A stretch of DNA of 27,144 bases, from positions 1 through 27,144 of the IMG/VR virus record IMGVR_UViG_3300032323_000136. One strand, written 5' to 3'. The notes beneath the pieces were generated by a model, which did no database searches, was not told the origin of the DNA, and saw only the letters and a program-made list of their open reading frames with translations. This DNA comes from a virus. Below are positions 1 to 18,491 of the stretch, piece after piece. A program made the position numbers and the translations under genes. Positions within the stretch are counted from its first letter, which is position 1. Each line of letters starts with the position of its first letter.

Positions 1-926
1 GCATCAACTGAAGCAACACGAACTGGATGTCTACTAAACATTCCAGATCCTGTCATACCATAAGCTGTGTTTTTAGTAGTTCCACTCCATGGTGTTCCAC
101 GATAAGAACCACCATTAATACTGGCAAAATTAGTGCCATATCCCCAACTCATGTTTACAACAGTTGGACGTTTGCGACCCAATGTTGGATCGATAGGTTT
201 GTTTCTATGCCAAAGTTTAATTACATCAAAACAATCTGAAATGGAGATTCCAGTTCCAGAATCTCCTGGACCTTCTAGTCCAGCTACCTTAACAGCATAT
301 ACTTTTGAGTTTTTAGCCCAACCATAAAGTCTACCTGCCACAGTGCCACCAACATGAGTTCCATGTCCGTGATAGTCACGATAGTGATTTGGTGATTGTG
401 TTCCAGCTAACCCAGATTCGGTATACCAATTTATTTGTTGAACACGATTAACACCAAGTCTGTCTAAAAATTCTGGATGATTTGCTTGAATACCTGTATC
501 ATGAATAACAATATCTACACCAGAACCATCATTGGTATAAACATAATTTTCAGTGGTAGTTGTAGAAGTTCCGTAAATATTATTATCGAAACTATGACGT
601 ATTAAACCCCAGTTAATATAGTTACCAACTGCAGTTGTAACTTTTGTAAAGTTACCAGTTTGAGTTGTAGATCTTAAACCAATCTCAATGTCTGTTCTTT
701 GATCTGGTGGAATCTCAACACCATAAACACGAGGATCGTTTCTTAATACTTGTGCTTCTTCGTCTGTTAGAGCATAATGACAACTGCGCAATGAGCCATC
801 ACGATTGTTTACAATCTCTACTCTTCTCGATGGAACAAACCCATCGCTTTCGCTAACAGATTCAATTTCATTCCAAAATGAATCGTAGTCAACATCTTTT
901 TTAAGACTAACGACATACTCTTTCAT
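1..926 (-). CDS. Subtilisin-like serine protease (peptidase S8), 3' end outside window
   Basis: Translating from ATG at 926-924 gives an open frame of 308 complete residues that runs off the left edge. Subtilase signatures are clear: the catalytic Asp lies in 'DIVIHDTGIQANHPEF' (Asp143) and the catalytic His in 'HGHGTHVGGTVAG' (His188). 'VVNMSWGYG' (about 256-264) fits the substrate-binding strand of the family. The nucleophile Ser (GTSMA-type motif) must lie beyond base 1 and cannot be checked. Residues 1 to about 80 precede the catalytic domain and may be an inhibitor-like propeptide. No signal peptide is visible. The gene starts 9 nt after the preceding stop, behind an AAAGG Shine-Dalgarno, so it is co-transcribed with the neck genes. 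Known: S8 enzymes cleave peptide bonds, and subtilase-domain proteins occur in some marine T4-like phages. Inferred: a virion-associated or maturation protease. Its substrate is unknown. Confidence 0.92.
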   Translation of the reverse strand, partial: MKEYVVSLKKDVDYDSFWNEIESVSESDGFVPSRRVEIVNNRDGSLRSCHYALTDEEAQVLRNDPRVYGVEIPPDQRTDIEIGLRSTTQTGNFTKVTTAVGNYINWGLIRHSFDNNIYGTSTTTTENYVYTNDGSGVDIVIHDTGIQANHPEFLDRLGVNRVQQINWYTESGLAGTQSPNHYRDYHGHGTHVGGTVAGRLYGWAKNSKVYAVKVAGLEGPGDSGTGISISDCFDVIKLWHRNKPIDPTLGRKRPTVVNMSWGYGTNFASINGGSYRGTPWSGTTKNTAYGMTGSGMFSRHPVRVASVD

Positions 927-1773: not shown

Positions 1774-2775
1774 TTATCTCCAGTTATCCATTGTTATACA
1801 GTCGTTATCTGATGTAACTAATGCGCTGTCATATCCAATAGATCTTGTAACGCTAGTGTTTAGAGCCTCTGTAATTTCTCCAAACGGATTATTTTCGTTA
1901 AACAAGACAGTGTCTGCTTCTTGTTTAAATTTGTTATTATCACCAAAAGAATCAGGTACGTCAATATCAATTTCTATAACTGCTTCTGCCAATGCCTGAA
2001 CACCACCTGATGGTGGAGGAGAAATAGTTACTGTTGGTGCTGTAATATAACGACCACCAGGATTCGTAATATTTATTGATGTAACTTTACCGTTAGTAAT
2101 GGTAGCAGTTGCAGTCGCAGAAACACCATCAGAGTTTGGATTAATAGTGACAGTTGGTGCGGACACATAATCACAACCTGGATTTAAAATATCAATTCGA
2201 AGTATTTTACCAGTAGTATTTCTAGTAGTATTAGTTGTGAATGTTTTAAGGGTTTCAAACGCATCAATTTCTTTAATGCCAGTATCAATTCTTTCAGAGC
2301 TATATTGGAAGAGTTCAATCTGAAGTTTGTAAACGTATAGTTTACCGAGTTGATAGAATGGATCCTGATGTTGAACAAACTTAATTTCAAACAAAGAATT
2401 AGTCAGTGGGAAATAAATTAAGTCACCTTCGCATGGGCGATCAGGAATAATAGTGACATCATATCTACCAATAAATTGTTCCCATCTACGTCTTGCAACT
2501 ACTAAAGTTGCAGACTGTTCCATCATTAAACCAAACTTTTGAATAAACGCACCTTGACCACCATATGAGTCTACGTTTTCAAAGTACATTTCAATAAGAA
2601 ATGAATTTTTAAATTCGCTTAATCTATCTTCACCAAGAATCTCATCTTTGGAAACAAGGTTTCTTGGAATGTAATACATCTGCTGACCATAAATCTTCAG
2701 CGATTCAATGATAAGATCTTCTACTAAGTACTGTTCAGACCTTGTACCATTTGTGAAGTAGACATTAGTTGTCAT
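1774..2775 (-). CDS. 14: Neck protein gp14 (T4-like) with inserted β-repeat domain
   Basis: The product, 333 aa, matches the gp14 neck protein of T4-like phages. The N-terminus 'TNVYFTNGTRSEQYLVEDLI' (3-22) with 'IESLKIYGQQMYYIPR', 'RWEQFIGRYDVTIIPDRPCE' (97-116) and 'KLYVYKLQIELFQYSSE' (145-161) are family-like blocks. In T4, gp13 and gp14 form the neck on the finished head, where the tail docks. T4 gp14 is about 256 aa. The excess is largely explained by residues about 189-270, which hold two copies of a 'G.Y..APTVTI....G..A.A.A.I.nGkV..I.I.NPG' module also present in the gp8 fragment at the right edge. The extreme C-terminus (about 271-333, 'NNPFGEITEALNTSVTRSIG') resumes gp14-like sequence. 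The start lies 3 nt after the gp13 stop (TAA-TTA-ATG). Confidence 0.88.
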   Translation of the reverse strand: MTTNVYFTNGTRSEQYLVEDLIIESLKIYGQQMYYIPRNLVSKDEILGEDRLSEFKNSFLIEMYFENVDSYGGQGAFIQKFGLMMEQSATLVVARRRWEQFIGRYDVTIIPDRPCEGDLIYFPLTNSLFEIKFVQHQDPFYQLGKLYVYKLQIELFQYSSERIDTGIKEIDAFETLKTFTTNTTRNTTGKILRIDILNPGCDYVSAPTVTINPNSDGVSATATATITNGKVTSINITNPGGRYITAPTVTISPPPSGGVQALAEAVIEIDIDVPDSFGDNNKFKQEADTVLFNENNPFGEITEALNTSVTRSIGYDSALVTSDNDCITMDNWR

Positions 2776-8253: not shown

Positions 8254-8589
8254 TTAAATCTGTGTAATTTCTGGATTTACTGTTACAATACCTTCCACCA
8301 CTCTAGTTTTAGTTCCAGATGGCGAGGTAATTTCTACGTCGTATAGGTATCTTCCAGGAGGTATCGCTCCAGAAGAACTGGCAGATAACTGTAATCTAAC
8401 CTTACCTTCACTGGCACTAAAAATTGAAGCAGTGAAATTATAGGAAATTGAAGAACTAAAAGACTTTCTAATTTGAGAAGCCACAGAGTAACCTGTCAAA
8501 TTTAGAGGTGCACCGCTACTCGATCCGACAGTAATAATATTACTGTAATCAGCACCTTGATCAATAAAAATATTTGCTACTGTAGCCAT
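8254..8589 (-). CDS. Small β-sandwich virion protein (BppU N-terminal-like)
   Basis: A 111-aa protein, 'MATVANIFIDQGADYSNIIT', with 'GAPLNLTGYSVASQIRKSFS' (about 26-45), 'GKVRLQLSASSSGAIPPGRY' (64-83), 'LYDVEITSPSGTKTRVVEGI' (84-103) and 'VTVNPEITQI'. This pattern (F.QG.d....i.....G.p..L.G......ir, then iPpG.Y.YDv........R.veG...v.PeiT) is typical of small phage structural proteins that resemble the BppU N-terminal domain. No catalytic residues are visible. It is the first gene after the terminator at 8634-8660 and sits behind a late-promoter-like AATAAATA and a GGGAG ribosome binding site, so it probably heads a transcription unit with the 82-aa and 784-aa genes. An accessory fibre or baseplate protein is most likely. 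Confidence 0.8.
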   Translation of the reverse strand: MATVANIFIDQGADYSNIITVGSSSGAPLNLTGYSVASQIRKSFSSSISYNFTASIFSASEGKVRLQLSASSSGAIPPGRYLYDVEITSPSGTKTRVVEGIVTVNPEITQI

Positions 8590-8682: not shown

Positions 8683-9255
8683 TTAACCTGCGAAGTTGGC
8701 AGATTGAATAACAGTAATAAGTTCTTCCACAGTATCAACTGCAGAAATAGCAGTTTCGAGACGATTTGCTTCAGCCACTACATCAGCACGACTAGTCGCT
8801 GTTTCTGCTGGAATATCGATATTACGTTCAATTTTACGAACCAACATCCAATCACTTTGTGATAAAATTGAGTTGGCAGTTTGTTTAAATTGATTAATAT
8901 ACTGAGACTTTAATCCAAGAGCTTTTTTACCTTGAGCATCTGGCTCACCATCTTCTAAGTCTTTGGCAGTAGATGTAAAAGTAATCTTTACAATTTTTTC
9001 AACAGAATCAAATTCTGGAGCGTTTTCAACAACACTGTAAAAACGATCATCTGGACGTGCAGCAAACGCTACATCATAAATGCCTAGATCTTGTTTCTGG
9101 ACTGTAGTTAAAGACATTAATGAAGAAGGAGAGTATTGAGTGCCGTTTTTATCTTCCCAAATGTTATATGGAGAAAACAGTTTAATAACTTCAACTTCTG
9201 AAGACTCGTTGGTTAATGGATTTGTTACCATTTCATTTTTTACTAAAGCGAACAT
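8683..9255 (-). CDS. Tail-fibre-assembly-like protein, partner of the 1694-aa adhesin
   Basis: A 190-aa acidic protein, 'MFALVKNEMVTNPLTNESSE'. The first half has 'LFSPYNIWEDKNGTQYSPSS' and 'TTVQKQDLGIYDVAF', resembling N-terminal parts of phage tail-fibre-assembly proteins. The second half, 'SQYINQFKQTANSILSQSDW' followed by 'MLVRKIERNIDIP' and 'SRADVVAEANRLETAISAVD', ends 'TVEELITVIQSANFAG', a DUF4376/Tfa-like helical C-terminus. The 186-aa protein at 14403-14963 has the same C-terminal layout, so the two are paralogues. The gene lies directly after the giant adhesin behind AAAGGA. Known: such small proteins downstream of fibres often act as folding chaperones or tip caps. Inferred: it serves the 1694-aa adhesin. 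Confidence 0.83.
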   Translation of the reverse strand: MFALVKNEMVTNPLTNESSEVEVIKLFSPYNIWEDKNGTQYSPSSLMSLTTVQKQDLGIYDVAFAARPDDRFYSVVENAPEFDSVEKIVKITFTSTAKDLEDGEPDAQGKKALGLKSQYINQFKQTANSILSQSDWMLVRKIERNIDIPAETATSRADVVAEANRLETAISAVDTVEELITVIQSANFAG

Positions 9256-9281
9256 TTTTATTTCCTTTAAAGAATTTCTAT

Positions 9282-9289
9282 TATTTATC
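9282..9289 (-). promoter_or_regulatory. Candidate late promoter (GATAAATA) before the 190-aa gene
   Basis: GATAAATA matches TATAAATA at 7 of 8 positions and includes the stop codon of the 1694-aa gene. It is 26 nt upstream of the 190-aa start. It could give the partner protein its own late transcript, though a chance match is possible in AT-rich DNA. Confidence 0.35.
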
Positions 9290-12200
9290 TAGCGTTGGCA
9301 TACTTAAATGGAGCATCAGCAAAAGCAGCGTAAACATAATTACCACCACTGGCATTTTCAGACGCACCAGTTGACCTTATTTTAAAGCCATTACTTACAA
9401 AATCTTTTGCGTCTCCTGCAGCTTCTGCATTAGCAAGCTGGGCGAAAAGAGCTACTGATGATGGATTAATCGGATCTCTAGCTGCATCAACGATCATCCA
9501 ACTTGCAGTTGCATCTGTTCGTTTAATCATAATCCATTTAGGTCTAAATCCTGTGTAGATAAATGGACCATCTGTAGAACCATTACCTGTGTAAGAACCG
9601 AAACTACTAAATCCTGGAACTTCTGCCCAAAGATATGCAATAAAAGCATCACCAGTACCATTTAATCCAGCACCAGCACTATTACCTACTGAGAATGTAA
9701 AATTTCCTGGAGGAGCATTACCCCAAACTGCACCACTTGTATTTTGAACAGCAGATTCATTTAAACGAAGATAAGATTGCGCACCATTAGATAAGTTAGC
9801 GTGCCATACATTCCAAGAGTTCCAAGAAGCAGTTCCATTTGTTGTTGATTTAACAATCATCATTTTTGGTAAATTACCAAGATTGTGTGCTATTGTTTGA
9901 TTTGCTGCACCATTACCACCATAGCTGACAATATCGAATCCTGGTATTCTTCCACGATTCCATGCCCATGAAACATAAGATGTTCCAGTGTTATTATAGT
10001 CTTGACCATTAGCAAGTTGAAAGCCATTTGGTAAAAATGTTTGTACTCCACCAGTATCTGTAGTCTGAGCACCAGTGTCATGAGACAATAATTGTCTAGT
10101 TGGTCCACGAACAGTATCAGTCCAACGATGACCATAACTAGCAGTACTACGAGCCTTTAACCATACCAAATCTGGAGTGGTTACAAAGTTACCGAATGAG
10201 TCTGGTAGATTAAATGAACCAACGTCTTTTAAGTTCTTAGTATTAAGTGCTCTAAATCCAGATGGTGGAGCATATGTAAATCCGTTTTGTCCGAAGTTTA
10301 TATTAAATGAAGCAGTTGCAGATCCTTCACCTTCGCCTACTGCGAATCTATATTCTATGTTTCTTACAACACCAGAATATACTCCTTGAGAAACTCCATT
10401 CTTAAAGAATTGTAAAGTTCCATTGTCGGCATCAAATGCGCAACCGATAGTATCTCCAGTAGTCCAAGAAGCACCATATGATTGTGGTGACGATCCAGGC
10501 ATGTTTGTAAAGATACCTTGTCCGCTACCACCACCATAGTATCCATAACCTCTATTGGAACCTTCATACATGTTATGAGCAGAGGTATAGGTTGCAGCCT
10601 GAACTATACCAACAGCAGATCCTGTGGTTACGTTACCAGTACATGCAGCTTCAAAATACCACTTTCCTGTAGTCATTGAAAGTGTAGAGGATGCGCAACT
10701 TTCTCCTGATGAGGTAACAACACGCAAGCCACCATTAGTTATTGTAGCAGTGCTAGAAGTCATAGTAGCATAGTTACCACGAACACCAGTACCATCGTCA
10801 TAGTCTGTTGGTGTGTCAAATGGTGCACTATTAAATAAAGAAGTTTCTGCACCAGTGCCGATATAAGAAGATGCGTTAGTGTATGATAAAATTACAACAC
10901 CAGCACCACCGCTGGCACCTGGATTGTTTGCTCCGCCAGCACCATTACCACCGCCACCGCCAGTATTGTTTACACCTGCGAAACCTTGATTACCACCACC
11001 GCCAATACCACCAGTTACACCACCACCACCAGCATAGAAAGCTGATACTCCAGTAATTGATGATGCTAAACCAGCACCACCATTTGGATTATTGCTAGGA
11101 CCATCGCCAACACCGCCTGCTCCACCACCGCCACCACCTTGGTATTGATTGGCAGAACCACCATTATTACCTTGTCCAGCAGTTCCTGCACCACCTGCAA
11201 AAGATCCTGGGGTTGTTGGTCCAGAGGCTCCGCCACCAGATCCACCACTAAGTCCTGCTTTTTGGTTAGTAGCACCACCGCCACCACCAATAGAAGTTAA
11301 TGAAGCAAATACTGAATTGGTTCCGTTTGTTCCGTTTGTTCCTGCACCACCAGTACCACCTGCACCACCACTACCGACTGTTACGGTATATGAAGTTCCA
11401 GGTGTTACTGATAGAGTTCCAGTTAGCATACCACCTGCTCCACCACCGCCACCAGTGGCTACTGTGTGGTTATTTCCACCACCGCCACCACCGCCTGCAA
11501 CTACAAGGTAGTTTACTGATGTTACACCAGTTGGAGCGACCCAAGTATATGTTCCTGGAGTTCCGTAGTATAACACATTAGGTGCACTGTTTGGGATTGG
11601 AGGAGTAATATTAACGGCAGTCCAATTATTATTATTACCAGATGTATCGTAACCCAATGTGATTACGTTTCTATCATCACTAAATGGTAAATAGTAACCA
11701 TTAGTACCATATGTACCAATATAGCGTTTAGGCATCCAGTTGCTATTGGCATCGAATTCACCAAAAGGAGATGCTGTTAGTGATTGTCCGTCAACAAAGT
11801 TAACTTCTGCAATATAAAGATCGCAGTGATTACCGTTGTTAAGAGCGTGTCTTCCAATAGTATGTAAGACATTATTGTTAATTTGTAAATCTTGATTTTG
11901 CGTTGGAACAGCAGTATAAGATGAGAATGGATAGTAAACACCATTAACAAAAATTCTCATTCTGTTAAACGCAGAAACTTGTGTAGTATCACAAGAAATA
12001 ACTATGTTATACCAATCGGAAGTGCTAGTGAATAACTGATTAGTTTCGTTTCCAGCAACATTGTGTGCTGTCATTCGAATTGCGTTTGAAGTACCAAATG
12101 CGAAACTAAATGACCCGTTAGTTGAATCAGAATTACCAGCTGCAAAAAATCTTTGATCTGTTCCAAGTACGTTTCTTTTAACCCAAGCACTCCAAGTCCA

Positions 12201-14369
12201 AGTTCTACGATTGCTTGCAGAAGAAGGTGTTCTGGTAAAATGACTTTGTATAGAAGAATCAAATTCAACTGATTTACTAATTCTATGTGCAGATGTTTGT
12301 TTTACTGTTGTACCAATAGTGAGTGATGAACCATTTCCCACATATGTCTTAACATCAAAATGTTGTTCTGGACGTCTAATTACTGGATTTGGTAAATTAG
12401 TTGTGTTTAGTGATTTAAATCCAGCAGGTGGAGTGTATGCGAATGGACGTTGTCCAAAGTTTAAATTATTTGTTGCAGTAATTGAACCTGAATATTCAAC
12501 AATTCTAAATCTTAAAGCACCTCTTGGATTATATAAATTAAGCACGTTTGGTGTTAAAGAAGTAGTAATTGCACTATTTTTACGAATCCACAATCTACCT
12601 TCATCGGCATCGTAAGCAAAACAAACAGTTCCACCACCACCAGTTCTAATTGCCTCATTAACGTTTGCGTTACTAATTGCGCCATTATAAACGTTAATAC
12701 CTGTGCCTTGACAAGTGAATATAATAGCTGGTGTTGTTTCACTTCCGATTAGGTCGAATGACTCTGTTTCCATTAAAACCATGCCATTACGAGCATCTGA
12801 AGCATCGGAAATACTTACAGTATTTTCCCAATACCACTTACCAGTAGAAGGAAATGCCATAGAACAACCAATGTGTCTATCATTTCCTGGGTTTGTAGTT
12901 GTAACAGTTAATCCAGCATTACTTACAGTGGCAGAAGCAAAATTATCTGCAGGACTCATAATAGGATAGTTACCACGTTGAACACCACCAACATCTGGTA
13001 GTGAAGATACTGTTGCAATTCCTGGAACATCGACCAGTGAGTCGTAAGTAACAGCTGTTCGAGTATTAGATATATTATTTGAAGTCCAATAATTTCTATC
13101 TGTAGTTTGCATGTATGATTTAACACCACTACCTAAAGTTACCTGTCCACCCCATACATGAATAGTTTGTCCGTTGCCAATACTGTTACCGCCACCAAAC
13201 TGAATAGCCATTGAGCTAATATTGTCAACACCAGTAAAATCGAAATCAAATCTTTGCCAAGATGTCGTAACAGTTACTGTTTTAGTACCAGTGGCGACGA
13301 ATGGTGAAGGTTTATAAGCATAAAGATTTACGTTTAAGGAACCTGAAGGGACTTTTAACCAAACTGATGCGTTATATGTTTGACCAGCTAAACAATTTAT
13401 TTGCGCAGCAAATGCAAAATCAGTGGTGCTTGACGTATAGGATTCAGCAGTCGTTCCACCAAAAGGATCTGTAATATTTGTGGCTGAAGATGAAAAAGAA
13501 CCTTTAGCCCAAAAAGCATTATCGAACTGCTCAGAGAAAGACAATAAATTTGCAGTGCCTGTATAGACACCAGCATAGTTGGTACCAAAGCCAACCTGTC
13601 CGCTTGCGGCAACATTATGGTCTGTGAATGGTAAGTAAAAACCATTAGTACCATATGTACCAGTATACAGTTTTGGAACCCATGTTCCAGTTTCTGGATC
13701 AGTAAAACCAAATTCAGATGGAGTTAAGGCTTGGCCATCAATAAAATTAGTTTCAGCGATTAATCCATCATAGAAATATGAGGTTGCTCCATCAAATAGC
13801 CTACCTAAACCATGTTGTGTAGCAGAGTTGTAATAAGTTTGTAAATTTTGTGTCGGGTATGTTTCAGTTGTAAAGGAAGTTACTTGAACTCCATTGACAT
13901 ACAACTTTAATCTATTACGTTCAATTGCTTGTGTGGTATCCATAGCAACAACCACATGATACCAAGCGGAAGGGTCACGATAGGCTGCTGTAGAAACTAG
14001 CCTGTAAGTAATACCATTCTGTGTTTCAATAATTTGAAACGAACCAGCCATAAACTGGATAGAAGCCCACTGACTGGCTAAACTACCTGATGTGAATATA
14101 TGATTCTCATCAACAAGAAGACCTCTTTTAAACCATCCACTAAAAGTCCATGTTCTACGGTTTGATGCTGTTGCTGGAGTTCTATTTAAAAACCCACTAG
14201 CACTTCTTCTAAATCTTAGTGAACGAGATGGTGTCCAACGTCCAGTTGGAAACTCACCTAACGATGTTCTAACCTGTGCCTCTGCAAGAGTGAAGACACC
14301 ATTTGCTGAGTTAGCATCTGTAACTTGTTCAGTAGCGGAAATAAAACCACCAGTATAACGACGAGCCAT
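9285..14369 (-). CDS. Giant adhesin: two LamG and two SPRY-like domains, polyglycine domain, DUF7483-like C-terminus
   Basis: This 1694-aa protein is mosaic. Visible order: N-terminal 'NGVFTLAEAQ' motif (23-32); LamG-like domain 1 (about 50-250, 'RTWTFSGWFKRG' and 'DGLIAETNFIDGQALTPSEF'); CBM-like jelly roll (about 274-425, 'NLLSFSEQFDNAFWAKG'); SPRY-like domain 1 (about 470-645, 'GKWYWENTVSI', closing 'NFGQRPFAYTPPAGFKSLNT'); LamG-like domain 2 (about 697-897); glycine-rich domain (about 935-1165, starting 'GTYTWVAPTGVTSVNYLVVA'); SPRY-like domain 2 (about 1190-1365); C-terminal DUF7483-like region (about 1388-1686, 'PDLVWLKAR', 'EVPGFSSFGSYTGNGSTDGP', 'YVYAAFADAPF'). Known: LamG, SPRY and CBM folds often bind glycans or proteins. 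Inferred: the major host-recognition appendage, replacing a gp12/gp37-type fibre. ATG with AAAGG upstream supports the start. Its smaller paralogue lies upstream at 14975-18052. Confidence 0.88.
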   Translation of the reverse strand: MARRYTGGFISATEQVTDANSANGVFTLAEAQVRTSLGEFPTGRWTPSRSLRFRRSASGFLNRTPATASNRRTWTFSGWFKRGLLVDENHIFTSGSLASQWASIQFMAGSFQIIETQNGITYRLVSTAAYRDPSAWYHVVVAMDTTQAIERNRLKLYVNGVQVTSFTTETYPTQNLQTYYNSATQHGLGRLFDGATSYFYDGLIAETNFIDGQALTPSEFGFTDPETGTWVPKLYTGTYGTNGFYLPFTDHNVAASGQVGFGTNYAGVYTGTANLLSFSEQFDNAFWAKGSFSSSATNITDPFGGTTAESYTSSTTDFAFAAQINCLAGQTYNASVWLKVPSGSLNVNLYAYKPSPFVATGTKTVTVTTSWQRFDFDFTGVDNISSMAIQFGGGNSIGNGQTIHVWGGQVTLGSGVKSYMQTTDRNYWTSNNISNTRTAVTYDSLVDVPGIATVSSLPDVGGVQRGNYPIMSPADNFASATVSNAGLTVTTTNPGNDRHIGCSMAFPSTGKWYWENTVSISDASDARNGMVLMETESFDLIGSETTPAIIFTCQGTGINVYNGAISNANVNEAIRTGGGGTVCFAYDADEGRLWIRKNSAITTSLTPNVLNLYNPRGALRFRIVEYSGSITATNNLNFGQRPFAYTPPAGFKSLNTTNLPNPVIRRPEQHFDVKTYVGNGSSLTIGTTVKQTSAHRISKSVEFDSSIQSHFTRTPSSASNRRTWTWSAWVKRNVLGTDQRFFAAGNSDSTNGSFSFAFGTSNAIRMTAHNVAGNETNQLFTSTSDWYNIVISCDTTQVSAFNRMRIFVNGVYYPFSSYTAVPTQNQDLQINNNVLHTIGRHALNNGNHCDLYIAEVNFVDGQSLTASPFGEFDANSNWMPKRYIGTYGTNGYYLPFSDDRNVITLGYDTSGNNNNWTAVNITPPIPNSAPNVLYYGTPGTYTWVAPTGVTSVNYLVVAGGGGGGGNNHTVATGGGGGAGGMLTGTLSVTPGTSYTVTVGSGGAGGTGGAGTNGTNGTNSVFASLTSIGGGGGATNQKAGLSGGSGGGASGPTTPGSFAGGAGTAGQGNNGGSANQYQGGGGGGAGGVGDGPSNNPNGGAGLASSITGVSAFYAGGGGVTGGIGGGGNQGFAGVNNTGGGGGNGAGGANNPGASGGAGVVILSYTNASSYIGTGAETSLFNSAPFDTPTDYDDGTGVRGNYATMTSSTATITNGGLRVVTSSGESCASSTLSMTTGKWYFEAACTGNVTTGSAVGIVQAATYTSAHNMYEGSNRGYGYYGGGSGQGIFTNMPGSSPQSYGASWTTGDTIGCAFDADNGTLQFFKNGVSQGVYSGVVRNIEYRFAVGEGEGSATASFNINFGQNGFTYAPPSGFRALNTKNLKDVGSFNLPDSFGNFVTTPDLVWLKARSTASYGHRWTDTVRGPTRQLLSHDTGAQTTDTGGVQTFLPNGFQLANGQDYNNTGTSYVSWAWNRGRIPGFDIVSYGGNGAANQTIAHNLGNLPKMMIVKSTTNGTASWNSWNVWHANLSNGAQSYLRLNESAVQNTSGAVWGNAPPGNFTFSVGNSAGAGLNGTGDAFIAYLWAEVPGFSSFGSYTGNGSTDGPFIYTGFRPKWIMIKRTDATASWMIVDAARDPINPSSVALFAQLANAEAAGDAKDFVSNGFKIRSTGASENASGGNYVYAAFADAPFKYANAR
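10875..11567 (-). repeat. Polyglycine-rich domain coding segment inside the giant adhesin
   Basis: This stretch encodes about 230 residues rich in runs of Gly such as 'VVAGGGGGGGNN', 'GAGGTGGAGTNGTNGTNSV', 'YAGGGGVTGGIGGGGNQGF' and 'GGGGGNGAGGANN'. It is introduced by 'GTYTWVAPTGVTSVNYLVVA' and closes with 'GASGGAGVVILSYT'. That framing is typical of the phage and bacterial glycine-rich domain whose repeats can stack as polyglycine-II helices, as known for the Salmonella phage S16 gp38 adhesin. The segment is clearly more GC-rich than its surroundings because of GGN codons. The smaller adhesin lacks it. Confidence 0.85.
11321..11342 (-). repeat. 9-bp tandem repeat within the polyglycine segment
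   Basis: The plus strand reads ttccgtttg twice and then ttcc, encoding the GTNGTNGT part of the glycine-rich domain in frame. Its 9-bp period keeps the reading frame, so copy-number slippage would lengthen or shorten the domain without breaking it. Confidence 0.7.
12387..12461 (-). repeat. Homology tract shared with the 1025-aa adhesin gene (copy B)
   Basis: It encodes the closing block of SPRY-like domain 1, 'NFGQRPFAYTPPAGFKSLNT' and following residues. It is nearly identical in DNA to 16016-16090, with an unbroken 20-base match at 12436-12455 against 16065-16084. Conservation at the DNA level suggests recent duplication, conversion or exchange. Confidence 0.75.
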
Positions 14370-14402
14370 TTAATTACCTTTTATTGAGACTAACTCTTTT
14401 AT

Positions 14403-14963
14403 TTAGTTTGCTTTAGGAAAGTTGACTGAATCCATAACGGCAATCAATTCTTCCACAGTTGTTACTTCAGAAATAGCAGCAACAACTCTTTCTTGTTCAG
14501 CGATTACATCTGCACGATATTCAGAAACTTCTTCTGGAATTTCTAATCCTTCAACTTCTCCACGAATAACATAGTAGTCAGTTGGATGTAATAAACTATT
14601 TGTTGTGTATTTAATTTCTGCAGCGCATGTTGTCTTTAAACCTTTGGCAACTAGACGTTCATCTGTGTCTACCATTGCACCTAGACTAGAACTACCTTCA
14701 ACAACTGCTTCTGGATCGTAAACTTTAACATAAAGAGGATTTCCATCTTCGTCAGATTCTTCACGATCTTCTAAAATTTTTGGATTACCTACACTCCAGT
14801 AATATTTTGGATCATAGTTTACATCACCTCGTTTTTCAATGCCCAGTGATGCACGAATAGAAGGAGAAGTTCCTTCTAACCATGAATATGGATATGTAAA
14901 TCCGTTCAGAGTAATATCTGAATCTTCTGGGATTTGAGTTCCGTTTAAATAGTAAATTGTCAT
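14403..14963 (-). CDS. Tail-fibre-assembly-like protein, partner of the 1025-aa adhesin
   Basis: A 186-aa acidic protein. The N-terminal half has 'MTIYYLNGTQIPEDSDITLN' and 'SWLEGTSPSIRASLGIEKRG' followed by 'YDPKYYWSVGN', resembling the start of phage tail-fibre-assembly proteins. The C-terminal half has 'NSLLHPTDYYVIRGEVEGLE', 'YRADVIAEQERVVAAISEVT' and 'TVEELIAVMDSVNFPKAN', a DUF4376/Tfa-like helical region. The paralogue at 8683-9255 shares the layout (long N..L..(T/S)DwxxiRxxE....iP....RaDVxxE..R...AIS.V.TVEELI.V..S.NF). It starts 11 nt after the 1025-aa adhesin stop with a purine-rich AAAGAGAAAA leader. The pairing suggests a dedicated folding or assembly partner for that adhesin; this is inference from context. 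Confidence 0.82.
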   Translation of the reverse strand: MTIYYLNGTQIPEDSDITLNGFTYPYSWLEGTSPSIRASLGIEKRGDVNYDPKYYWSVGNPKILEDREESDEDGNPLYVKVYDPEAVVEGSSSLGAMVDTDERLVAKGLKTTCAAEIKYTTNSLLHPTDYYVIRGEVEGLEIPEEVSEYRADVIAEQERVVAAISEVTTVEELIAVMDSVNFPKAN

Positions 14964-14974
14964 TTGTTTTCTCT

Positions 14975-17900
14975 TTATCTTGCTCTGTTATTTAGGGCGA
15001 ATGGTGACTCTGCGAATGCTGCGTAAATATAAGTAAATCCAGAATGATTAACTAAGGTTGACGCATCTCGTATTCTTATACCGTTAGATACTACATCAAA
15101 ATATCCTGTTGGTCTTCTGTCAAATTCTGCTTGAGAATTATCTGACAGTAAAGTAAAACCAGTTAAGTTACCCCTATTGTCTCGTGTAGTATCAAATATT
15201 CCCCATGAGTCTTCACCAACTTTTTTAATCATAATCCATTTAGGTGCAAAACCAAGATTAATAAAAGGACTATCGGCTCCTGTTGAACTATTTCCTACGT
15301 ATGTTCCAAATTTGCTAAATCCTGGAACTTCAGCAAAACAATAAGCTATCATTCTGCTAGTGCTAGGATTACTCCACCAAGCAGAATTACCTGAAAACAC
15401 AGTAGAAGTTGGTGCAGTATTATTCCAAACTTGAGTTGTCGATGTTGGTCCAGCGGTAGAATTTAATTGAAATCTAACTCCAGCACCACTACCAGCGTGA
15501 TATACATCCCAGTTATTTGTGGTGTCTCTATTTTTTACAATAATCATTCTAGGAGCAACACCTAAACCATGACCAACTGTAAATGTTGAATTATTTAATG
15601 TGTAACTAACAACACTAAATCCAGCAGCGGGATTAGCATTTACTGTTGACGTGATAGAACCAGCAGTATTAGTCACAGTTGTATTTCCTGCTTTCCACTG
15701 CCAAGCAACAAATGCTTCTCCACTACCATTTTCATTTGCGTCTGTACCAAGAGAAAATCCATCTGAGTTAAAATTTGTCAAACTACTCCAGCTACCATCA
15801 GCAAAAGCTGTATTTGACATAAGATTAACAGTAGGACCACGAACAGAATCTACAAGAGTGTGGTTTCTATTGGCACCTCTAGATTTAATCCAAACTAGAT
15901 CTGGTTGAAAACCACTATTTTTAATATCTCTTGGTACACCAAGCCCACCATATAAGCTGACATCAAAATGTTTGGACGCTTGAACTGCAGCATTACCAAT
16001 AGTAGATGTTCCAAGTGCTCGGATATTAGTTGTATTTAAAGATCTAAATCCAGCAGGTGGGGTATATGCGAATGGACGTTGTCCGAAATTAGCAGTATAA
16101 ACTAAAGTTCCAGTACCAGAGGCAAAGGCTGGAGACATATTTTGATTGGCTGTAAAAGTTTGTGATGGGTTTGTATTAGCAGCTGGATTACCACTGGCTT
16201 GCCAAACTCCATTTATACCATACCAAATTCTACCAGCATCTAGATCTAATGCAAACATAAAAGTGTCGCCAACAGATCCATCTGTACCATAACTTGGAGC
16301 AGAACCATTATTATAAACACGTGGTGGGCTATTAATTTTGAGCCAACCATTTGCAGTTTCTCCAAAACTTTGTCCTACACCAGCCTCATTGGTTACACCA
16401 AATCTATAGTTTGCTCCACTAACCCAAAGAACTTCCCAATACCATTTACCAGTATTCTGGAATATAGTAGCTGGTTGAGCCGATGTACCAGTTACCGTAA
16501 CTGTTAAATTAGCATTAGAACATGTACCAAAATTGCTAAGTGGATTTATTGTGGCATAGTTACCAATAACTACACCACCAGTATCATTGGCAATTGTAGG
16601 TGCGTTGGTTGGTGAATCAACCATTGAGTCGTATGTTGCACCAGCAGTCACAGAGATATTGGCTGGAACCCAATCATTGACAGCTGCAGATCCTGAAGTT
16701 GCAATAAATCTATCTGGACCAACTCCAAGATTGACCTGTGGACCCCAAACTAAACAAGTTCCAGTACCAGCTAAACCAGCATGAGCAGATGATCCTGCTG
16801 GCCAAACAACTAAGTTAAAATTTGAGCCAGCATTATGACTAGTAGTTATAGATGCTCTATACCATCCGTTACCAACATGGGTCACAGTACCTTTAATTAA
16901 TCCAGAACCTGGAGATGTTGGCTGTAAAATATTAGGAGCATTATCACCATTCCAGACTAGAGTTATCATATCTCTATCAAAACCTGCAGGTACACCTAAT
17001 GCCAAAGTTGTTATTGCAGCAGTACCACGTTTTAAGTAAATGCTGGCGGTAACCTGAGTTCCGTCTATAGTAAATCCAAAATTATCTGATCGATTAAAAT
17101 ATTGATATATTGAAGTAGCACTAACTGTGGCTGCTGTCATAGTTCCATTCGGTGCTAGAGCATTGTTACTAGTTTTAGTGACAGTACCATCCCAGCTAGC
17201 ATTAGATAAATCTGTATTAGTAATATAGTTAGAGCCAGCAAAATTTTTACCTAAACCACGAAGACCAGAATTTTCAGTAAACGGTAAGTAGAAACCATTA
17301 ATACCAAATGTACCAGTATAACGCTTTGGTTGCCAGATATTTGTGTTTGGATCAAAGTATCCAAAATTACTTGGTTCTAATGCTTGTCCGTCAATCACAT
17401 AGTATTCAGATAACAAACCATCAAAAGATTCACTAGCAGACCAAGAACTATACGCTTCATGGCCAATAGCATGATAAGCAGCTTGGTTAAAGAAAACCAT
17501 CTGAAAATTTCGTGCTGGTGTTGTATAAGATTCAATAGCAGATCGAACACCATTAACATATACTCTAATTCTATCTGGAGCGATAGCGTTTGTAGTATCA
17601 ATAATAACAACAATATGATACCACGCAGAAGGATCTCTTAAAACTGCAGCAGTAACTGCACCACCTTCTTGTCCGCTACCACCAGAATTGGTAAACCCTA
17701 CACCTATTTTATTGTCACCACGTATATTAATACTATCAAACCAACCACTACCAAACCACCCTGCACTAAAGAAATTTTTCTGACTAGAGTCAATCAAACC
17801 TCTCTTCAACCAACAAGAAAGTGTAAATGTGGTTCTGCTACCAGCCACGGCATGCGTTTTAGTTAGTTCTGCCAGCGCAGAAGATCTGAATCTTAAAGAT

Positions 17901-18052
17901 CTGCCAATTTCATAGATGCCATCGGCTTCTTGCCACGTCCCTGCAGTCGTTGCATGATACTTATCTTTTAAATCCCATATACCATTATTTGATGTTAGTG
18001 ATAATGGTACTGGATTACCAGTGATAAAATTTCCTGGATAACTTTTAGACAT
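14975..18052 (-). CDS. LamG/SPRY/DUF7483-like adhesin (1025 aa)
   Basis: Visible order: N-terminal 'NNGIWDLKD' motif (22-30); LamG-like domain (about 50-258, 'RSLRFRSSAL', 'TTFTLSCWLKRG', 'AWYHIVVIIDTT', 'RIRVYVNGVRSAIESYTTPA', 'DGLLSEYYVIDGQALEPSNF'); CBM-like jelly roll (about 280-450, 'VGNGWYRASITT'); SPRY-like domain (about 500-660, 'NTGKWYWEVLWVSG', closing 'NFGQRPFAYTPPAGFRSLNT'); and a DUF7483-like C-terminus (about 694-1016, 'FQPDLVWIKSRGANRNHTLV', 'HGLGVAPRMIIVKNR', 'FAEVPGFSKFGTYVGNSSTG', 'FAPKWIMIKK', 'YIYAAFAESPF'). It is a compact version of the 1694-aa protein downstream, lacking its second LamG/SPRY pair and the polyglycine domain. AGGA upstream of the ATG supports the start. 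A role as host-binding tail appendage is inferred; no enzymatic motif is visible. Confidence 0.87.
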   Translation of the reverse strand: MSKSYPGNFITGNPVPLSLTSNNGIWDLKDKYHATTAGTWQEADGIYEIGRSLRFRSSALAELTKTHAVAGSRTTFTLSCWLKRGLIDSSQKNFFSAGWFGSGWFDSINIRGDNKIGVGFTNSGGSGQEGGAVTAAVLRDPSAWYHIVVIIDTTNAIAPDRIRVYVNGVRSAIESYTTPARNFQMVFFNQAAYHAIGHEAYSSWSASESFDGLLSEYYVIDGQALEPSNFGYFDPNTNIWQPKRYTGTFGINGFYLPFTENSGLRGLGKNFAGSNYITNTDLSNASWDGTVTKTSNNALAPNGTMTAATVSATSIYQYFNRSDNFGFTIDGTQVTASIYLKRGTAAITTLALGVPAGFDRDMITLVWNGDNAPNILQPTSPGSGLIKGTVTHVGNGWYRASITTSHNAGSNFNLVVWPAGSSAHAGLAGTGTCLVWGPQVNLGVGPDRFIATSGSAAVNDWVPANISVTAGATYDSMVDSPTNAPTIANDTGGVVIGNYATINPLSNFGTCSNANLTVTVTGTSAQPATIFQNTGKWYWEVLWVSGANYRFGVTNEAGVGQSFGETANGWLKINSPPRVYNNGSAPSYGTDGSVGDTFMFALDLDAGRIWYGINGVWQASGNPAANTNPSQTFTANQNMSPAFASGTGTLVYTANFGQRPFAYTPPAGFRSLNTTNIRALGTSTIGNAAVQASKHFDVSLYGGLGVPRDIKNSGFQPDLVWIKSRGANRNHTLVDSVRGPTVNLMSNTAFADGSWSSLTNFNSDGFSLGTDANENGSGEAFVAWQWKAGNTTVTNTAGSITSTVNANPAAGFSVVSYTLNNSTFTVGHGLGVAPRMIIVKNRDTTNNWDVYHAGSGAGVRFQLNSTAGPTSTTQVWNNTAPTSTVFSGNSAWWSNPSTSRMIAYCFAEVPGFSKFGTYVGNSSTGADSPFINLGFAPKWIMIKKVGEDSWGIFDTTRDNRGNLTGFTLLSDNSQAEFDRRPTGYFDVVSNGIRIRDASTLVNHSGFTYIYAAFAESPFALNNRAR
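16016..16090 (-). repeat. Homology tract shared with the 1694-aa adhesin gene (copy A)
   Basis: It encodes 'NFGQRPFAYTPPAGFRSLNT' and flanking residues at the end of the SPRY-like domain. The partner copy is 12387-12461, and the longest identical run is 20 bases at 16065-16084. It lies at a domain border, as expected for a module-exchange point. Confidence 0.75.
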
Positions 18053-18086: not shown

Positions 18087-18491
18087 TTAAGCAATAGTTT
18101 CGAATGATGCCACAACTTCTAAGAAACCAGCAGTGCTTGCCTGAACTGATAATGATGCATTTTCTGGAACGTAGATAGAACCAGCTTTATCCAACAACAT
18201 TAAAGTTGTATTTGCAGGAACAGAAATCTGGAAAGCGATACGATATGGAGTACCACTAGAAGCTGTTGTGAGTGTACCATTAGTTACAGCATTTGCAGCT
18301 GAACGATATGATAGAGTAATAGTTGCTGCAGAAACACCATTCACGTTTGATACGAAAATGTTGTTTACTTTTAAAACAGTATTCGATGATGCTGCGTTAC
18401 TAATAAGAGCATTATCATTAGTGTTAGTCAGTGATTGAAAGGCAATATTACCTTTAATGTCTGCTACGTTTACAATATTTGGAGCTGCCAT
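18087..18491 (-). CDS. Small virion protein of unknown function (134 aa)
   Basis: A 134-aa protein starting 'MAAPNIVNVADIKGNIAFQS'. It is rich in Asn, Ser, Thr and Ala with alternating hydrophobic residues ('ATITLSYRSAANAVTNGTLT', 'YRIAFQISVPANTTLMLLDK', 'AGSIYVPENASLSVQASTAG'), then 'FLEVVASFETIA'. The pattern suggests one β-sandwich domain, like small decoration or fibre-associated proteins of marine myoviruses, with which its opening and ending look compatible. No catalytic motif, signal peptide or membrane segment is seen. It lies between the 319-aa fibre-like gene and the first adhesin, behind AAAGGA. I cannot assign a specific function. Confidence 0.78.
   Translation of the reverse strand: MAAPNIVNVADIKGNIAFQSLTNTNDNALISNAASSNTVLKVNNIFVSNVNGVSAATITLSYRSAANAVTNGTLTTASSGTPYRIAFQISVPANTTLMLLDKAGSIYVPENASLSVQASTAGFLEVVASFETIA

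Follow-up and report, generated by a model that had tools for sequence, protein, structure and literature searches.

Two tandem pairs of a tail-fibre adhesin and a predicted Tfa-like chaperone in uncultured T4-like phages

Introduction

Why would a T4-like phage carry two adhesin genes in tandem, each directly followed by a small gene of one and the same family? The question is raised by the virus record IMGVR_UViG_3300032323_000136, of which positions 1 to 27,144 were analysed (27,144 nucleotides, hereafter the window). An adhesin of 1025 amino acids (aa), A, is followed there by a 186-aa partner, p186 (cassette 1), and an adhesin of 1694 aa, B, by a 190-aa partner, p190 (cassette 2). An earlier note on this DNA had listed these four open reading frames (ORFs) as adhesin then partner, twice; their positions, sizes and order are confirmed, and all of them lie on the minus strand. 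We consider it rather likely that A and B serve a T4-like phage as two tail-fibre adhesins, each with its own Tfa-like chaperone, docked separately and both carried at once. The two cassettes comprise the following features (window coordinates).

14975..18052, minus strand: adhesin A, 1025 aa; ORF with an N-terminal tag, a LamG-like region, a SPRY region and DUF7483
17873..18052, minus strand: cassette-1 N-terminal tag of A, residues 1-60, a putative virion docking motif, present in relatives
15002..15979, minus strand: DUF7483 domain of A, residues 692-1017 (Pfam; AlphaFold2 (AF2) model)
14978..15022, minus strand: cassette-1 C-terminal tail of A (..ESPFALNNRAR), with the LNNRA ending
14403..14963, minus strand: partner p186, predicted Tfa-like chaperone of cassette 1 (ORF; phrog_4912; AF2)
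14430..14639, minus strand: conserved C-terminal helical domain of p186, residues 109-178 (AF2 helices; alignable to p190)
9285..14369, minus strand: adhesin B, 1694 aa; ORF with an N-terminal tag, LamG1, a SPRY1 region, LamG2, a glycine-rich domain, SPRY2 and DUF7483
14190..14369, minus strand: cassette-2 N-terminal tag of B, residues 1-60, present in relatives
9309..10181, minus strand: DUF7483 domain of B, residues 1397-1687 (Pfam)
9288..9332, minus strand: cassette-2 C-terminal tail of B (..APFKYANAR), with the FKY[AG]NAR ending
8683..9255, minus strand: partner p190, predicted Tfa-like chaperone of cassette 2 (ORF; p186 paralogue; model hit, E=6e-50)

Only 11 nt separate A from p186, and 29 nt separate B from p190.

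Results

Partners p186 and p190

The partners are paralogous and diverged most in their N-terminal halves, as the earlier note had supposed. They are 45% identical across the last 77 aa (BLASTP E=6e-19), share the previously noticed ending TVEELI-V--S-NF, and give a Smith-Waterman score of 160, compared with a maximum of 59 in 2000 shuffles. When the N-terminal halves alone are compared pairwise, the score is no better than that of shuffles. A profile of the relatives' N-halves built without the p190 group matches 9/9 p190-type N-termini (E 3e-5 to 3e-9; best of 1800 shuffles E=0.06), and the N-halves are therefore regarded as highly diverged homologues. The AF2 model of p186 (predicted local distance difference test, pLDDT, 92.6) shows a small beta N-domain with two short helices, a hairpin (78-83/96-103) and a C-terminal part of three helices within residues 109-178.

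To assign the family, we used three criteria, namely a match to the profile phrog_4912, a position after the fibre gene, and an N-terminal beta, C-terminal helical layout. phrog_4912, which PHROG describes as tail fiber assembly, is matched by 45/56 relatives of the partners at E<0.01 (best 9.4e-7), over the C-terminal helices, and the relative in phage S-CRES3 carries the annotation tail fiber assembly protein. The layout of a variable N-terminal beta domain and a conserved C-terminal helical domain is found as well, in the AF2 model and in the divergence of the N-half and conservation of the C-half. By sequence and model, the partners are assigned to the Tfa-like fibre chaperones, and would act as such.

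The label DUF4376-like, which the earlier note had also attached to the partners, was not borne out. PF14301 matched 0/6 records, and the DUF4376 proteins V22 gp27 and A5 gp9 gave no match with the partner hidden Markov model and a probability of 0.2% in hhalign. In a Foldseek search against viral models, unnamed phage proteins were matched, and those named DUF4376 appeared only at E 0.05-1. Three partner homologs (L007 7370-7912, L008 8370-8912 and L004 8782-9321; contigs are cited by our L numbers) are publicly annotated as N-acetylmuramidase/lysin or as na-ca exchanger/integrin-beta4; they are probably misannotated Tfa-like chaperones.

Adhesins A and B

Three blocks are homologous between A and B, with identities of about 35% and E values as low as 1e-61. 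Both contain DUF7483 (PF24299; A, E=1.3e-103, 347 bits; B, E=8e-85, 285 bits), well above the curated cut-off of 27 bits. Pfam further finds Laminin_G_3, Gly_rich_2 and SPRY in B, and the PHROG match of A is a virion structural/tail fiber protein. The LamG region of A aligns to the second LamG of B, and its SPRY region aligns to both B 402-680 and B 1182 onwards; the part of B ahead of DUF7483 is therefore read as two LamG-SPRY modules with an added glycine-rich domain, against a single module in A. Judged from these alignments, B is more than a lengthened A, and the domain order that the earlier note ascribed to both holds in outline, with DUF7483 in each, but not in the number of modules. 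The model of the DUF7483 domain of A (pLDDT 91.8) is beta-rich, with low confidence in the last ~10 residues.

A 66-bp stretch at the end of the SPRY region, FGQRPFAYTPPAGF, is 88% identical between B and A (window 12396-12461 / 16025-16090), and possibly represents a recent recombination or a recombination point. Gene conversion between DUF7483 domains within a genome gave no average signal and was rejected (identity 0.381 in the same genome vs 0.376 in different genomes).

Synteny and ancestry of the two-cassette block

The two-cassette block is present in the window and in seven other non-redundant contigs (L040, L041/L052, L045/L046, L047/L051, L048, L049 and L050), L011/L039 being excluded from the count as 100% identical to the window. 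As far as the contigs reach, the order is a 134-aa gene, A, a p186-type partner, B, a p190-type partner, genes of 111, 82 and 784 aa, and neck genes. No partner is swapped between the two positions in these eight contigs. Flanking genes and partners are conserved, and the adhesins are variable. The genes bordering the cassettes are as follows.

18087..18491, minus strand: conserved 134-aa gene, upstream flank of cassette 1 (75-87% identity in L040, L041, L046 and L048)
8254..8589, minus strand: conserved 111-aa gene directly after cassette 2 (PHROG, L-shaped tail fiber protein assembly; 60-85% identity, all syntenic contigs)

The T4-like tail and neck neighbourhood is evident from a neck/head-closure gene nearby (PF11649, E=5.9e-34, window 1774-2775) and from a T4-type capsid gene in a syntenic relative, the L048 contig (G001, 159,683 bp; gp23, E=7.5e-142), which holds exactly two DUF7483 genes and two partners. 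Adjoining the neck genes, a Subtilase-family gene (window 3-926; Peptidase_S8, E=4e-14; 87% in L040) runs off the contig end.

In four of the two-cassette contigs, an adhesin is split in two ORFs (N-tag and LamG; SPRY and DUF7483) with a ~115-aa gene between them (L040 7541-8133, L048 5605-6199, L050 4245-4892, L045 1735-2326). It always lies after a conserved ..IYTVTATSTTSETVTF stop or near it, and matches phrog_7759 (E=2e-36), to which no function is assigned. The window has no copy.

Partner identity is 63-66% within a cassette type and only 30% between the types. A recent duplication within this genome is rejected on two grounds, the occurrence of both cassettes in seven contigs besides the window and the partner identity of only 30%; most likely, as far as these comparisons tell, the two cassettes are old and stable. 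The earlier note proposed that one ancestral pair had been duplicated; the two paralogous cassettes are supported, but their origin by such a duplication in this lineage is not proved. Each partner type forms a clade with support of 100/100 in the partner tree, and the two are not sisters: the cassette-2 clade joins the single-partner relatives L101/L117 (99/89) rather than cassette 1. This placement favours separate acquisition of the two cassettes from different phages, as do the DUF7483 bodies of W_14403 and of L040 cassette 1, which are placed outside cassette 1. Yet constraining both types to one clade is not rejected (approximately unbiased (AU) test, p=0.288), a quick DUF7483 tree groups most of both cassettes (Shimodaira-Hasegawa-like approximate likelihood ratio test, SH-aLRT, 94), and the N-tags of A and B are related to each other. 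Since the types are not sisters while a joint clade passes the AU test, duplication of a pair is neither supported nor rejected by the trees, and separate acquisition has, in our estimate, somewhat less than an even chance.

Cassette-specific ends of the adhesins

The first adhesin of L040, L041, L045, L048 and L049 begins with the N-tag of A (55-83% identity), and the second adhesin of L040, L041, L045, L047, L048, L049 and L050 with that of B (67-75%). The two tags are 33-39% identical to each other. They are largely missing from single-cassette relatives, whose adhesins begin directly in the LamG region.

The C-terminal ends are also cassette-specific. The last 15 columns of DUF7483 are 81-86% identical within a cassette and 63% between cassettes, whereas the DUF7483 bodies are 42-48% identical within a cassette (cassette 1: tail 86% vs body 42%). 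The ending LNNRA[RIE] is found in 8/8 cassette-1 adhesins and 0/91 others; FKY[AG]NAR is found in 9/9 cassette-2 adhesins, with FKYANAR in five others too. As a general predictor of partner presence, a C-terminal motif is weak and is not claimed here (39/52 PFxxxxAR endings with a partner vs 7/15 other endings). Along much of the DUF7483 body of the window's A, the closer affinity is with single-cassette relatives, whereas the tail remains of the cassette-1 type, and this difference suggests that adhesin bodies have been exchanged between fixed ends. The distances of partners and DUF7483 domains correlate (r=0.62, 0/300 permutations).

Adhesin-then-partner pairing across phages

The same two-gene order, which the earlier note proposed to seek in marine phage genomes, proved widespread. 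It occurs in isolates, namely Synechococcus, Roseobacter and Methylophilales phages, and in one uncultured spring-water phage. Among 121 non-redundant partner homologs, upstream DNA is readable for 109 (one short open fragment counted), and 106/109 follow a DUF7483 adhesin, usually at a distance of 1-41 nt; in about 20 the gap is 465-591 nt with an endonuclease gene inside. Exceptions are L006 (HTVC202P), with the partner upstream of the adhesin, and L064, with a 239-aa ORF between the two. Three of the 12 copies at a contig edge also show DUF7483 fragments. Conversely, in a set chosen by adhesin and with enough downstream sequence, a partner follows 46/67 adhesins. Independent occurrence, which the earlier note had named as telling against such pairing, is thus seen in part for adhesins and hardly for partners.

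Directly 3' of the adhesins of SS120-1 (L126 6359-6502) and PSS2 (L130 8858-9037), unannotated ORFs of 47 and 59 aa match the partner profile (E=8e-13 and 2e-9), and are apparent remnants of a lost partner. In about one fifth of the single-cassette phages, genes of the HNH or endonuclease VII type (PF02945, E down to 3.6e-25) sit exactly at the adhesin/partner junction (L013 1125-1664, L034 9503-9991, L083 9480-9992, L004 8316-8780 and ~16 more), as if a homing endonuclease targeted it. In L101 (85-5750) and L117 (3779-9450), two DUF7483 adhesins overlap by 1 nt and are followed by one partner, an arrangement in which one chaperone may serve both adhesins.

Discussion

A mechanism can be proposed in which the adhesins would be trimer-forming receptor-binding proteins. 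The cassette-specific N-terminal tag would dock each adhesin to its own site on the virion, and the fast-evolving LamG/SPRY/DUF7483 body would contact the host, with a short conserved C-terminal tail ending the adhesin. The variable N-terminal beta domain of the partner, together with the hairpin, would grip the newly made adhesin at its distal end, and the conserved helical domain at the C-terminus of the partner would trimerise and register the adhesin as in Pam3 gp25, Mu Tfa and T4 gp38. Such a mechanism would account for the divergence of the partners being concentrated in their N-halves. Both fibres would most likely be on the phage at the same time, and may provide two distinct receptor specificities. 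The tags at both ends and the unswapped partners agree with a dedicated partner for each adhesin and with two co-existing fibres; alternatively, the tail and the partner may match because their coding sequences are physically linked.

Several results weigh against this explanation. The window partners' own matches to phrog_4912 are weak for p186 (E=0.036; 4e-4 in a single-genome search) and absent for p190. No Pfam chaperone family lies above the cut-off for the partners, and Phage_tail_APC is matched only weakly, by 5/56 relatives (best E 0.045). Foldseek and VIA searches with the models of the partner and of the DUF7483 domain of A found no PDB fold match for the partner and no informative PDB relative for either. 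The correlation of partner and adhesin distances could stem from shared ancestry and physical linkage alone. Several DUF7483 adhesins of Kyanoviridae, Pelagibacter and Vibrio phages have no partner, and in L101, L117 and L119 a single partner follows two DUF7483 adhesins.

These last three contigs bear on the earlier note's claim that each partner is dedicated to its own adhesin, with which the lack of swaps and the cassette-specific tags agree and the single partners do not. They would fit partners that are interchangeable generalists, with the second copy kept not for specificity but because of dosage or hitch-hiking, much as T4 gp57A serves several fibres (PMC3004832). We regard generalist partners as unlikely, given that there is no positional exchange in eight contigs, that the partners form two deep 100/100 clades with 30% identity between and 63-66% within types, and that the C-tails are cassette-specific. 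To a similarly low degree, we would expect A and B to be joined in a single branched or composite fibre, with one adhesin attached by way of the other. Such an arrangement has been proposed for LtfA/LtfB of DT57C, in which adjacent adhesins give two receptor specificities on one branched fibre (PMC4728585); against it in the window, each adhesin keeps its own conserved N-tag of a related type (33-39%), suggesting parallel docking. Least probable to us is that the partner stays on the fibre as a distal cap or contacts the receptor, as Mu Tfa or T2-like gp38 adhesins do: the Tfa proteins of Mu and Ur-lambda stay attached to the virion (PMC9608196; PMC10579305) and the partner N-domain has diverged between cassettes, but the partner is conserved within a cassette (63-66%) while the adhesin body is variable (42-48%), the reverse of what is expected for a receptor-contacting tip, and the partner has no obvious glycine-rich loop domain like that of the gp38 adhesins.

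Phage Mu has two fibre-plus-Tfa pairs, S-U and S'-U', in its invertible G segment. The orientation of this segment, which carries the tail-fibre genes, sets the host range (PMC2628397). Inversion lets Mu express only one of its pairs at any time, whereas the pairs of the window have the same orientation and reading order, and hence both cassettes are presumably expressed.

One of the nearest known counterparts is the tail fibre and chaperone of the myocyanophage Pam3 (gp24-gp25, PDB 7YPX), likewise an aquatic myophage with a small protein 3' of the fibre and an N-terminal beta, C-terminal helical layout. In gp25, the variable N-terminal beta domain binds the fibre and the conserved helical C-domain trimerises (PMC9608196). 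Pam3 differs in having a single pair and a TNF-like/Gly-rich fibre rather than LamG/SPRY/DUF7483, and the partner has no sequence match to it in a PDB profile search. In T4, the fibre gene 37 is directly followed by the gene of its specific chaperone, gp38, and both are co-transcribed (PMC3004832). Because gp37-gp38 is one such pair, the earlier remark that paired cassettes lie outside the T4 plan applies only to the presence of a second pair; the single T4 pair is at the long-tail-fibre locus, whereas the two of the window are in the tail/baseplate-neck region by gp13/gp14-like genes. For the Alteromonas phage V22, the chaperone gene gp27 is essential for a functional receptor-binding protein (PMC7289586). 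V22 gp26-gp27 and A5 gp8-gp9 also have a downstream chaperone of ~195 aa, of the DUF4376 family (PMC7289586, PMC10579305), but gp27 and gp9 show no sequence relation to the window partners by profile or profile-profile comparison. Two adhesins for two receptors on one phage are known from DT57C (PMC4728585).

In Synechococcus phage S-B68, too, a partner of the same family comes immediately after each of two DUF7483 adhesins, but the pairs are ~34 kb apart. Since its two partners group together, on long branches, S-B68 is probably an independent doubling. Each of its adhesins (L005 2201-6538, 38541-43331) has three to four tandem DUF7483 copies.

Fibre-chaperone pairs are already well known; the novelty here is a stable tandem pair of pairs, found in a lineage of T4-like phages and marked by tags specific to each cassette at either end of the adhesins. 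For the partner family, now annotated in isolates as hypothetical, lysin or integrin-like, a likely role can be given. More tentatively, and with less confidence than we give to separate acquisition, the lineage may permanently keep two fibre systems as swap-in modules, in which a hypervariable receptor-binding body is inserted between a conserved docking tag specific to the cassette and a conserved C-terminal address tail that the chaperone of the same cassette reads; if so, bodies would be exchangeable between phages without loss of attachment or folding. The recurrence of the block suggests that these phages build two kinds of fibre rather than one, and the maintained two-pair module in uncultured T4-like phages offers a natural test of dedicated versus general fibre chaperones.

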